Below the pieces are notes generated by a model that had not been told where the DNA came from, searched no databases, and saw only the letters and a program-made list of their open reading frames with translations. Shown here piece after piece: positions 2,536-32,470 of a stretch of 64,000 bases of DNA (position 1 is its first letter; the number at the start of each line of letters is the position of its first letter). Source of the DNA: an uncultured Pirellulaceae bacterium (lineage in GTDB: Bacteria > Planctomycetota > Planctomycetia > Pirellulales > Pirellulaceae); contig CALFWR010000052.1 of the NCBI GenBank assembly GCA_937928555.1, forward strand, positions 1 through 64,000, written 5' to 3'. Both the position numbers and the translations under genes were made by a program.

Positions 2536-2886
2536 ATGGCAAAAAAAGTTGACTGGAGCTACCTTCGCAATGGCTGAAAGACCTGTGTAAAAACGCAAGA
2601 GTTTCTTGCCAATGCCGGGATCGAACCCAAAACCAGCGTTAACGCGAAAAAAGATGTTCATCAAAAAGATCAGGCCGCCGGACTGATCGACAAATCGAAA
2701 AAGTTATTTGCCGCCAGGGGGAAGAAGGTGGTGGAGGTCGATTTGACGAAAACGGATTTGACCCGGGAGGAAATCCTCAAACTGGTGCTCGGTCCGACGG
2801 GAAACTTGCGGGCACCGACGCTGCTGACCGGGAATGTCATGGTGGTGGGGTTCAATGAGGAAATGTACGCCGGGCTGTTTGGGTAG
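2536..2886 (+). CDS. ArsC-like thioredoxin-fold (seleno)protein with in-frame UGA
   Basis: Translation from ATG 2536 runs 116 residues to TAG 2884 with one internal TGA at 2575-2577 (codon 14). The TGA lies in LRNG-U-KTC, the position of the first catalytic residue of a CxxC-type redox motif (UxxC). After it the frame continues without interruption, through NAKKDVHQKD and LGPTGNLRAPTL, up to VVGFNEEMYAGLFG; the RAP stretch with its cis-proline fits the ArsC/Spx-like fold. A GGGAG ribosome site lies nine bases before the ATG. A 6-bp hairpin with a G-starting loop sits 17 bases after the UGA, as in bacterial SECIS elements. I recall ArsC-family (seleno)proteins from planctomycetes. The alternative is a Cys-to-stop pseudogene, but the intact frame and the hairpin argue against it. 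Substrate is unknown; thiol/selenol redox chemistry is likely. Confidence 0.8.
2595..2609 (+). promoter_or_regulatory. candidate bacterial SECIS hairpin
   Basis: GCAAGA (2595-2600) pairs perfectly with TCTTGC (2604-2609) around the loop GTT (2601-2603). The loop begins with G and lies 23 bases after the UGA. Known bacterial SECIS elements have a small G-containing apical loop about 16-37 bases after the codon. It sits inside the coding sequence. Confidence 0.65.
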
Positions 2887-2914: not shown

Positions 2915-3101
2915 CCCGGATTATTCACGACGACGGGCGTTGACTCTACGGCTGGCCAACGGGAGCAAAAGAAAAGCTGAATTTCAACAAGAATTGCGAA
3001 TCATCTGACAGATGAAAACCGCAGCGATCGTTTCATCGCATCAGAGCTGCGGATCACTTTCGGAACTGATTCTGACGCCCACGCCTCGTGAATAATCCGG
3101 G
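2915..3101 (-). mobile_element. MITE copy 1 (187 bp)
   Basis: The element begins CCCGGATTATTCACGACG and ends GTGAATAATCCGGG. The 5-bp duplication TTCAG lies at 2910-2914 and 3102-3106. It sits 28 bp after the selenoprotein-like gene and 18 bp beyond the stop of the convergent esterase gene. It is in reverse orientation relative to copies 2, 3, 6 and 7. Confidence 0.9.
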
Positions 3102-3119: not shown

Positions 3120-4613
3120 TTAGAAGTGTTTGCCTTCGGAAGCGATCGGAAAGTCGTCCGAGCGAAACGGGGATGCGGGAAGGCCGCTTTCGTTCACAAG
3201 GTTCGGTGTGACTTCTAGGTTCCATCCAAAGCGGACTGCAATCGGTTGATCGACTTTCGGGCTACTGACTTCAACCGCGATATCCTCCACGATCGTCGCC
3301 GAGGCGGGGTGGAACACTTTGTCTTGGCCGCAAATCTCGAAACCAATTAACTCGGGATTAGTTTCGCCGATGCGAAGCTGATTGCCGGTTTGTGAAAAGG
3401 CGACCCGGATTTTGGATCCCTGGTTTGAGATGGATTGAAACATCGGGCCTCTGGCTGCGGATGCGGATTCAATCCCGTAGACATCTGCGAGAGCAAGTTT
3501 CGCCAGGCGTTGGGCGACGGACTGTTTGTTTCGCGGTTGAATGTCGTCCATTTTCCCGACGTCCAAAAGAACGGCCATGCTGACCGCTGGAACATCCAGC
3601 GCTGTTTTGAGTTGCGTTTCCCAGGCTTCCTGAAGCGCAAATTCACCACGGTCCAGGTACTGAAACGGAGCCAGTTGGGCGAATACAAATGGTAAATTCG
3701 GTTGGCCAAAATTTTTCCGCCAATCGGCAATCAGGGCTGGAAACAGAGAGCGATACTGATGCCCGCGTCCCACGTTGGCTTCGCCACCATACCAGATGAC
3801 GCCTTTGACCGGAAAGCGTGTCATCGGGGCCACCATGGCGTTGTACAAATTCGCCGGATGGCTCGGTCCGGTGACTTCCTGGCTTTCGTCCCAGTGCTTC
3901 AGCAGCGGAGCAAACTCTTCAACAGAATCAAGCGCCGGACGCGAGATCCATGCTTCGCAAGTCGAACCCGGCATCGACGCGTTGATCAACCCGATGGGTA
4001 CATCTTCAATATCCTTGCGAATCCGTTTGGCGAAAAAGTAACCAACCGCCGAAAAGTCCGCCACACTGTCGGGCCCGCAAACCGCCCAGGGCTTTACCAC
4101 GCCAAAGGCATCCAGTGGCTTGGGGGACGTGGTTCGCTCGATCGAAAACAGCCGGATCTTTGGAAAGTTTCTCGAATGCTCAATTTCAGTTTCCGGATTC
4201 AGGGCCTTGGAAACTGGCCAGGCCATGTTGGATTGTCCCCCGCAGATCCAAACGTCGCCGACAAGAATATTTGCAACTCCGACGGTCAACTCTGATCCGT
4301 CTTCGTTGACCTGCAGTTCAAATGGCCCGCCTGCTTCGCCGGTCACGATCGAGGTGCTCCAGCGTCCTTTGGCATCGGCGGTGGCGGTGTATTTATTTTC
4401 AGCAAACGTGATCGTCAGGTTGACCCCGGGCGTTGCCGTCCCCCAAACCGGCAGAGAGCTTTGCCGCTGCAACACCATATGATCCGAAAAAAGTTTCGAC
4501 AGCGTGATGTCTGCCATCACAGTTTTGGCAGTCGAAAAGCTCGCCGCAACGACTGCAAAGACAAGCAGCAGACTGCGCAACGGGACCGTGCTGAAAAATC
4601 GGACTGGCGACAT
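3120..4613 (-). CDS. sialate O-acetylesterase family protein, secreted
   Basis: This 497-residue SGNH-type esterase would remove acetyl groups from sialic acids or related acylated glycans outside the cytoplasm. A signal peptide covers about residues 1-34. The family opening LSKLFSDHMVLQRQSSLPVWG follows, with a beta domain to about residue 115. The catalytic-serine block is GGQSNMAWPV, preceded by VGDVWICGG. A second block, GVIWYGGEANV, holds the position of the oxyanion or late catalytic motif of the family. Length is normal. The gene stands alone. In planctomycetes such enzymes usually belong to polysaccharide degradation, but no sulfatase or glycosidase lies nearby here, so the substrate is uncertain. 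Confidence 0.9.
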   Translation of the reverse strand: MSPVRFFSTVPLRSLLLVFAVVAASFSTAKTVMADITLSKLFSDHMVLQRQSSLPVWGTATPGVNLTITFAENKYTATADAKGRWSTSIVTGEAGGPFELQVNEDGSELTVGVANILVGDVWICGGQSNMAWPVSKALNPETEIEHSRNFPKIRLFSIERTTSPKPLDAFGVVKPWAVCGPDSVADFSAVGYFFAKRIRKDIEDVPIGLINASMPGSTCEAWISRPALDSVEEFAPLLKHWDESQEVTGPSHPANLYNAMVAPMTRFPVKGVIWYGGEANVGRGHQYRSLFPALIADWRKNFGQPNLPFVFAQLAPFQYLDRGEFALQEAWETQLKTALDVPAVSMAVLLDVGKMDDIQPRNKQSVAQRLAKLALADVYGIESASAARGPMFQSISNQGSKIRVAFSQTGNQLRIGETNPELIGFEICGQDKVFHPASATIVEDIAVEVSSPKVDQPIAVRFGWNLEVTPNLVNESGLPASPFRSDDFPIASEGKHF

Positions 4614-7332: not shown

Positions 7333-7516
7333 TCCGGATTATTCACGAGGCGTGGCATCAGAATCAGTTCCGACAGTGATCCGCAGCGCTGATGCGATGA
7401 AACGATCGCGGTGGTTTTCATCTACCGGATGATTCGCAATTCTTGTTGAAATTCAGCTTTTCCCTTGCTCCCGATGGCTGGACGTAGAATCAGCCCGTCG
7501 TCGTGAATAATCCGGG
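7333..7516 (+). mobile_element. MITE copy 2 (184 bp)
   Basis: Ends TCCGGATTATTCACGAGG and GTGAATAATCCGGG, with target duplication CTTAT at 7328-7332 and 7517-7521. It lies between scpA and the convergent permease gene, whose stop codon (7518-7520) falls inside the right-hand duplication. Confidence 0.9.
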
Positions 7517-10003: not shown

Positions 10004-10673
10004 GCAGGGCTTACCTGTTTGGGCTGGGCATGGTTTCAGATGGACGACGTCGTTTCGCGATTGCAAGGATACCACGAAAGTGAGCCGCTGGTTGTGCGGG
10101 CCGTGCGCGGTGGCGAATCGTGAGCCGTTTGCCGTGAGGCCACGGGTTTCAGAGACCGAAAGGAAGTTCAGAAGCTGAGATCGCCGCGGCGATTCTCCGA
10201 GTGGAGGTCGCAAATCAGTAGGCCGGATCAAGGACGCTGAACTTACTCCAACACTTAAACACGTCCTTCGATTTCGAACCTCCTGAACATCATCCAACCT
10301 CATTGCCGCGTCCGACGCTCCGGCAATCGCTCCCTCCGGATCCGGCGATGCGTGTTTCACCCCGGATTATTCACGAGGCGTGGGCGTCAGAATCAGTTGA
10401 GACAGTGATCCACGTCTCTGATGCGATGAAACGATCGCTGTGGTTTTCATCTACCGGACGATTCGCAGTTCTCGTTGAAATTCAGGTTTTCCCTTGCTCC
10501 GGTTGGTCAGACGTAGAATCAACGCCTGTCGTTGTGAATAATTCGGGTTCACTCACGCTCCACATGCAAGCGCAAAACATTGCCGCAACGGCGGACGCAT
10601 CAAAGAAGTTCAATGTTGTCCGGCTTGCTTTTGCGCAAAAAATCACTTGGGCACACAAACCACCTGCGACCTG
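10004..10673. other. intergenic region with MITE copy 3
   Basis: There is no gene in these 670 bases. At 10080-10150 lies a motif (TGAGCCGTTTGCCGTGAGGC) that recurs at 35639-35708. MITE copy 3 occupies 10361-10547. The rest shows nothing recognisable. Confidence 0.6.
10361..10547 (+). mobile_element. MITE copy 3 (187 bp)
   Basis: Ends CCCGGATTATTCACGAGG and GTGAATAATTCGGG, with target duplication TTCAC at 10356-10360 and 10548-10552. Confidence 0.9.
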
Positions 10674-20702: not shown

Positions 20703-20889
20703 CCCGGATTATTCACGACGACGGGCGTTGATTCTACGTCTGGCCAACAGGAGCAACGGAAAAGCTGAAGTTCAACAAGAAATGTAAATCATCCGGTAGA
20801 TGAAAACCACAGCGATCGTTTGATCGCATCAGAGTCGCGGATCACTGTCTCAACTGATTCTCACGCCCACGCTTCGTGAATAATCCGGG
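20703..20889 (-). mobile_element. MITE copy 4 (187 bp), beside tRNA-Ser
   Basis: Ends CCCGGATTATTCACGACG and GTGAATAATCCGGG, with target duplication CTGAA at 20698-20702 and 20890-20894. The right-hand duplication ends one base from the 3' end of the tRNA gene. Confidence 0.9.
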
Positions 20890-27385: not shown

Positions 27386-27575
27386 CCCGGATTATTCACA
27401 AGGCGTGGGCGTGATTTTCAGTTCAGCCAGTGAACTCGGTGTCAGTCCGAAAAAGTCCTATTTTGGAACTCATCAGCGAGGTGAACCGAATTCCCGGGCG
27501 ATCCAGCTTTGGGGTGGTGCGCCAAGAAAGATTTAACCGCGTCGGCGCCCGAGCGCCCGTCGTGAATAATTCCGG
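27386..27575. mobile_element. MITE copy 5, variant with unrelated core (190 bp)
   Basis: Ends CCCGGATTATTCACAAGG and CGTGAATAATTCCGG match the family. The target duplication TTAAG is at 27381-27385 and 27576-27580. The central 140 bases do not resemble the other copies. Confidence 0.8.
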
Positions 27576-31358: not shown

Positions 31359-31545
31359 ACCGGATTATTCACGAGGCGTGGGCGTCAGAATCAGTTGAGA
31401 CAGTGATCCGCGACTCAGACACGACGAAACGATCGCTGTGGTTTTCATCTACCTGATGATTTACATTTCTTGTTGAATTTAAGCTCTTCCCTTGCCCCTG
31501 CTGGTCAGACGTAGAATTAACGCCCGTCGTCGTGAATAATCCGGC
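31359..31545 (+). mobile_element. MITE copy 6 (187 bp)
   Basis: Inner ends CCGGATTATTCACGAGG and GTGAATAATCCGG, with target duplication CTAAT at 31354-31358 and 31546-31550. The stop codon of the next minus-strand gene (31546-31548) lies in the right-hand duplication. The copy stands upstream of gnd. Confidence 0.9.
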
Positions 31546-32283: not shown

Positions 32284-32470
32284 CCCGAATTATTCACGAC
32301 GCGTGGGCGTCAGAATCAGTTTCGACAGTGATCCGCGACTCTGATGCGATCAAACGATCGCTGTGGTTTTCATCTACCAGACGATTTGCATTTCTTGTTG
32401 AAATTCTGCTTTTCCCTTGCTCCCGTTGGCCAGGCGTAAAATCAACGCCCGTCGTCGTGAATAATCCGGG
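32284..32470 (+). mobile_element. MITE copy 7 (187 bp)
   Basis: Ends CCCGAATTATTCACGACG and GTGAATAATCCGGG, with target duplication TCAAT at 32279-32283 and 32471-32475. Confidence 0.9.

Follow-up and report, generated by a model that had tools for sequence, protein, structure and literature searches.

A probable selenoprotein gene of the ArsC/Spx fold, with an in-frame UGA and a coding-region hairpin, in a Pirellulaceae genome

The reading frame at 2536-2886 on the forward strand of the window (the whole 64,000-nucleotide stretch of DNA analysed here) is very probably a working selenoprotein gene of the NF041106 family, in which SelB and a hairpin at 2595-2609 would decode the UGA at 2575 as selenocysteine (Sec), giving a product with an ArsC/Spx-type thioredoxin fold. 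The frame starts with ATG at 2536 and ends with a TAG stop at 2884-2886, leaving 116 residues between them. Its sole in-frame TGA, at 2575-2577, is codon 14 and lies in the motif G-U-K-T-C, in which the UxxC motif is U-K-T-C at residues 14-17. Judging from the codons of relatives and the Sec machinery of the genome, this TGA is most likely a Sec codon; the TGT at 2584-2586 encodes Cys17, the probable resolving cysteine, which is at least 90% conserved in a 37-row protein alignment (Ser in locus L045). A probable ribosome-binding site, AGGGAG, can be read at 2521-2526, 9 nt before the ATG. The preliminary description of this DNA had claimed just this arrangement, namely a UGA at codon 14 of an otherwise clean 116-residue frame with a ribosome site, and the frame is indeed as described. 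On the forward strand, no table-11 open reading frame of at least 60 aa covers 2536-2886.

When the TGA is read through, the match to the NCBIfam model NF041106, "ArsC family (seleno)protein", reaches 131.8 bits (cut-off 85) and covers model positions 1-107 of 107. This match is far beyond chance; it agrees with the earlier claims that frame and fold continue on either side of the UGA and that the gene encodes a selenoprotein rather than being broken. The Pfam ArsC model PF03960 is also reached (29.2 bits, gathering score 24), and an AlphaFold2 model built from the 37-row alignment, with Cys in place of Sec, has a mean pLDDT of 90 and a pTM of 0.80. The closest solved structure is the Spx protein 3l78, both by sequence (E 2.2e-8) and by fold (E 4.4e-4, TM about 0.5, rmsd 7). 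In the earlier name, an ArsC-like redox protein, "ArsC-like" describes the fold, and among solved structures it is Spx proteins that come closest. Invariant columns of the alignment are W7, Y9, R11, residue 14 (with Sec and Cys counted as the same), G62, L91, R92, P94, G105 and F106. The nearest relatives in the contig scan, L021 and L022, are 70-71% identical to the window protein.

What such a protein does allows two further possibilities in the following. First, it may be a true arsenate reductase in which Sec replaces the catalytic Cys, as the Pfam ArsC score and the name of the family in print (PMC13188914 and PMC2398784, in the tables concerned) would suggest. We consider this unlikely: the protein has UxxC, the type of motif seen in Spx or redoxins, a second Sec arsenate reductase family in print is of the UxxS type, and TIGR00014 is absent among the profile matches of the read-through protein down to E 1. 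The three window neighbours that were scanned (a DUF3127 protein, an acetylesterase and a nitroreductase-family protein) include no arsenic gene; the first two flank the selenoprotein gene, the DUF3127 protein at 1987-2382 and the acetylesterase, of the sialic-acid type, at 3120-4613, both on the reverse strand. Across 34 loci (open reading frames of at least 90 aa, some loci incomplete), the neighbourhood holds no recurrent partner beyond apparent synteny among near relatives, and the largest common neighbour family, which reads like a sulfatase, occurs at 8 loci in no fixed place. Second, the product may be a Sec-containing Spx-type regulator that binds RNA polymerase and is not an enzyme. 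Its best PDB matches by sequence and by fold are Spx proteins with CxxC at the same place, and the Spx model TIGR01617 gives 37.5 bits; that score is well short of the 75.05 bits at which membership is assigned, PRK01655 (123 bits) is likewise not reached, and the fold matches are modest, with TM-scores about 0.5 and high rmsd, making this reading quite improbable.

The identity of the site codon in relatives supports the Sec reading. A DNA scan of genome contigs returned 36 loci, of which the distant L056 was dropped; in the remaining 35, the codon aligned to residue 14 is TGA in 33 and TGC in 2, so that homologues with Sec and with Cys at this residue, which the preliminary description had proposed to look for, are both present. 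Among 199 genomes of the same taxonomic family, 56 contain a match and 52 a match over the cut-off; 48 of these 52 members carry one in-frame TGA (one of them also a TAG) and 4 carry no stop. The aligned codon was read in 34 of the 52: it is TGA in 30, namely in L093, the window and 28 other loci, and Cys in 4. The assignment of the other 18 of the 48 TGA members comes from the stop tally instead of a codon reading. In 294 genomes of the phylum there are 65 over-cut-off matches in 64 genomes, with TGA at the site in 55 (all 55 with a stop) and, in the 10 without a stop, Cys in 9 and Asp in 1; L089, L090 and L188-L190 fall below the cut-off and are not alignable at the site. The earlier remark that ArsC-like selenoproteins belong mainly to planctomycetes needs qualifying: the family also occurs outside the phylum, the contig scan having returned records titled Desulfobulbaceae, Desulfocapsa, Desulfuromonas, Deltaproteobacteria and Gemmatimonadetes. 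A quickly made maximum-likelihood tree with 119 rows, 14 of them Cys forms, requires at least 11 changes between Sec and Cys (site masked, the Asp row L192 left out, and branch support not considered).

Two individual cases may be mentioned here. Genome G243 holds a TGA form (L104) together with an open-frame copy, L192 (C12), which has Asp at the Sec site and keeps the second Cys; tRNA-Sec is present in this genome. L093 has a TAG five codons past the conserved TGA and is either a decayed copy or the product of an assembly error.

The genome of the window (4.87 Mb in 168 contigs, 91% complete) contains the full set of genes for Sec synthesis and insertion, which the preliminary description had named as the ones to look for; with these genes and the aligned homologues present, neither condition under which that description would have called the gene broken applies. 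SelB, with its winged-helix domain, is on contig C39 (360.4 bits, cut-off 242.25), SelA on contig C117 (565 bits, cut-off 267.9), SelD on contig C110 (249.1 bits, cut-off 125), and tRNA-Sec on contig C118 (70.1 bits, gathering score 47), where ARAGORN also calls SeC with the anticodon TCA. The SelD protein (L019 1390-3582, reverse strand) has 730 residues, with a pyridine nucleotide-disulfide oxidoreductase domain fused at its N-terminus.

The presence of tRNA-Sec is also linked to the TGA form across the taxonomic family. With the line between tRNA-Sec and its look-alikes set by us at 60 bits, a tRNA-Sec of at least 60 bits is found in 45 of the 48 genomes with a TGA form, in 3 of the 4 with a Cys form, and in 47 of the 147 without an over-cut-off match; for TGA-form against no-match genomes this gives a Fisher p of about 1e-14, with kinship ignored. 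The three TGA-form genomes without such a match (G014, G102 and G190) stayed without one on a second look covering 14 genomes, and are likely to be incomplete assemblies. In that second look, G143 and, in the phylum sample, 7 of the 10 genomes whose member has no stop likewise lacked a tRNA-Sec match of at least 60 bits.

The signal that would direct SelB to the UGA is best seen in the family as a whole. In 52 TGA forms (the window and those from the genome contigs and the genomes of the taxonomic family), alignment of the 60 nt from the UGA needs no gaps, and columns 20-26 pair with columns 30-36 around a 3-nt loop. On average 6.35 of the 7 pairs are kept, against 4.24 +/- 0.13 expected from 300 synonymous-codon simulations (highest 4.67); at least 6 pairs are present in 47 of the 52, and the loop is GUU in 43. 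In 51 distinct rows, 12 cells have changed on both sides and still pair, a number that none of 500 shuffles reaches. One of the five covariation measures, which counts the pairs altered in both arms, is matched by 57 of 500 shuffles, and kinship alone can exceed the shuffles.

In a broader set of 106 distinct TGA forms (including L093 with its further TAG), the p value of a G-loop hairpin against synonymous redraws is at most 0.05 in 79, above 0.2 in 20 and in between in 7, whereas it is at most 0.05 in 1 of 13 Cys forms (L050, L064 and L090 being excluded for the wrong frame). The stems vary widely across the 106, and the GUU or AGUU loops persist. Folding energy alone separates Sec from Cys forms poorly: the whole-fold z is -1.58 (s.e. 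0.22) in the 20 TGA forms that lack a G-loop hairpin, -1.10 (0.12) in the remaining 86 TGA forms and -0.83 (0.49) in the 13 Cys forms. Two of these 20, L052 and L104, have in common a longer bulged hairpin with the loops AUU and CUU, and a second class of SECIS in the NF041106 family is possible.

The window hairpin itself, at 2595-2609 on the forward strand, consists of GCAAGA and UCUUGC around a GUU loop that lies 23 nt after the UGA. By itself it is not decisive: its 6 pairs in the fixed stem are matched by 10.6% of synonymous versions (p 0.106), and the hairpin search gives p 0.015. The 48 nt at 2578-2625 fold with -12.8 kcal/mol (z -2.20), and the 25-nt core with -6.1 kcal/mol (z -3.30). 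The bacterial SECIS model, as set out in the relevant part of PMC13188914, has a loop of 3-9 nt, a stem of 4-16 bp, a G in loop positions 1-2, a spacing of 16-37 nt and an energy of at most -7.5 kcal/mol. The window hairpin agrees with it in its GUU loop with G first, its 6 bp and its 23 nt, and in energy through the 48-nt fold only, because the core is at -6.1 kcal/mol. Rfam gives no match in the window at the gathering threshold, and none around the gene to E 1.

These data bear on whether the UGA is a defect. A TGA is one base away from TGC or TGT, and the genome is a draft, so that a pseudogene, or a sequencing or assembly error interrupting an ordinary Cys-type gene, has to be considered; yet the TGA stands at the same codon in most relatives of both the phylum and the contig sets, the frames are intact on both sides and the hairpin is conserved. 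A defect is accordingly very improbable, and we reject it on the conservation of the site TGA and of the hairpin. That the UGA is recoded in another way, by genome-wide reassignment or by a near-cognate tRNA reading through without selenium, would account only for its being read through, and is hardly credible considering that members without a stop never have Trp at the site but have Cys there in 9 of 10 cases in the phylum sample and in all 4 in the taxonomic family, that several relatives terminate at a TGA stop, that the Sec machinery is complete, and that the G-loop hairpins accompany TGA forms far more often than Cys forms. We reject genome-wide reassignment.

For a working Sec gene, we propose the following sequence of events. 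SelA, with selenophosphate from SelD, would make Sec-tRNA-Sec; SelB carrying Sec-tRNA-Sec would bind the hairpin at 2595-2609, so that the UGA at 2575 is decoded as Sec. The product would be a 116-residue protein of the ArsC/Spx-type thioredoxin fold, whose N-terminal part carries the active site U-K-T-C and which also has a conserved R-A-P loop. In catalysis, Sec14 may act as the nucleophile on oxidised sulfur or a similar substrate, Cys17 may resolve the intermediate, and recycling of the selenoprotein may fall to a thioredoxin-like thiol of the cell. Within this proposal the Sec insertion signals, the equivalence of Sec and Cys at the site and the predicted ArsC/Spx thioredoxin fold are supported by comparison.

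The position of the hairpin inside the coding region raises a question about the protein. Of the two codons in the 5' arm, one stands for Gln in 50 of the 52 TGA forms and the other for Glu (GAG) in 43; at these places, 2 of the 14 Cys forms have Gln and 1 has Glu. The Q-E contrast is confounded by clade, as Q-E is missing from TGA forms of other lineages too. It is conceivable, although we hold it to be rather doubtful, that the RNA signal writes part of the protein: in most Sec forms the hairpin would dictate which residues follow the active site (such as Q-E-F-L-A), the Cys forms would be freed from this, and the 20 of 106 Sec forms with a different hairpin lacking the loop G would have a SelB that recognises another signal.

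The surroundings of the gene contain repeats. An element of about 187 bp with 16-nt inverted ends (CCCGGATTATTCACGA) occurs in 7 copies in the window, at 2915-3101, 7333-7516, 10361-10547, 20703-20889, 27386-27575, 31359-31545 and 32284-32470, and one copy begins 29 nt past the stop codon of the selenoprotein gene. Its arms are 168-174 nt apart from start to start, 171 in 5 of the 7 copies. Genome-wide, the arms match 672 + 653 times (about 1,300) with up to 2 mismatches, against 1 + 0 for a reversed-pattern control, and in 20 further genomes of the genus the count is between 0 and 10 per genome; the element looks like a species-specific, MITE-like burst. At about 20-320 of the window, the list of open reading frames has repetitive frames on both strands, with ALPKESTAKGEHCQR-like units on the forward strand, which suggests a short tandem repeat.

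The family is already in print. Table 1 of PMC13188914, a review of 2026, lists among high-confidence predicted selenoproteins an "Arsenate reductase-like protein, NF041106, UxxC, 1 Sec" and cites PMC2398784, whose table has the entry "Arsenate reductase 2, cd03032, UxxC, 42"; by our reading this is the entry that matches NF041106. According to the relevant passages of PMC1794560, Desulfotalea psychrophila has an ArsC-like selenoprotein and Desulfuromonas acetoxidans a distant homologue of ArsC; those of PMC1088965 describe an arsenate reductase of the UxxS type, the form that Table 1 of PMC13188914 gives as TIGR00014. In the main text file of PMC4807772, on planctomycete selenoproteins, "ArsC" appears once, in the reference list only. 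The consulted sections of PMC13188914, PMC2398784, PMC1794560 and PMC1088965 report no experimental function for NF041106, and the review states in the part concerned that it is unclear what most such selenoproteins do. As the family is catalogued in print and has a curated NCBI model, the window gene adds a member to a known family and does not found a new one; it is a real gene, but an ordinary one among its kind.

The window gene by itself alters no established view, and a recoded gene was correctly recognised from its letters alone. The family is nevertheless a useful comparative set, with many switches between Sec and Cys, one Sec/Asp paralogue pair, and a SECIS in the coding region whose compensatory changes can be traced across the phylum.

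Among known systems, the NF041106 family (ArsC_rel_Se_1) is alike in the full-length match over the cut-off, the UxxC motif and the single Sec; nothing essential differs, and the window protein is one more planctomycete member. Spx proteins (TIGR01617; PDB 1z3e and 3l78) have in common with it the ArsC-type thioredoxin fold, CxxC or UxxC at the same place and an Arg before the Pro loop, but the window protein is far under the curated Spx cut-off. The Sec arsenate reductase known from the Sargasso Sea survey likewise belongs to the arsenate-reductase family and has Sec at the catalytic position; the motif there is UxxS, in contrast to UxxC here, and its model is not among the matches of the window protein. 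Sec glutaredoxins and the UXX-star families also combine a thioredoxin-type fold with Sec, and to these the window protein gives weak scores only (NF041212 at 22.0 bits, cut-off 66).
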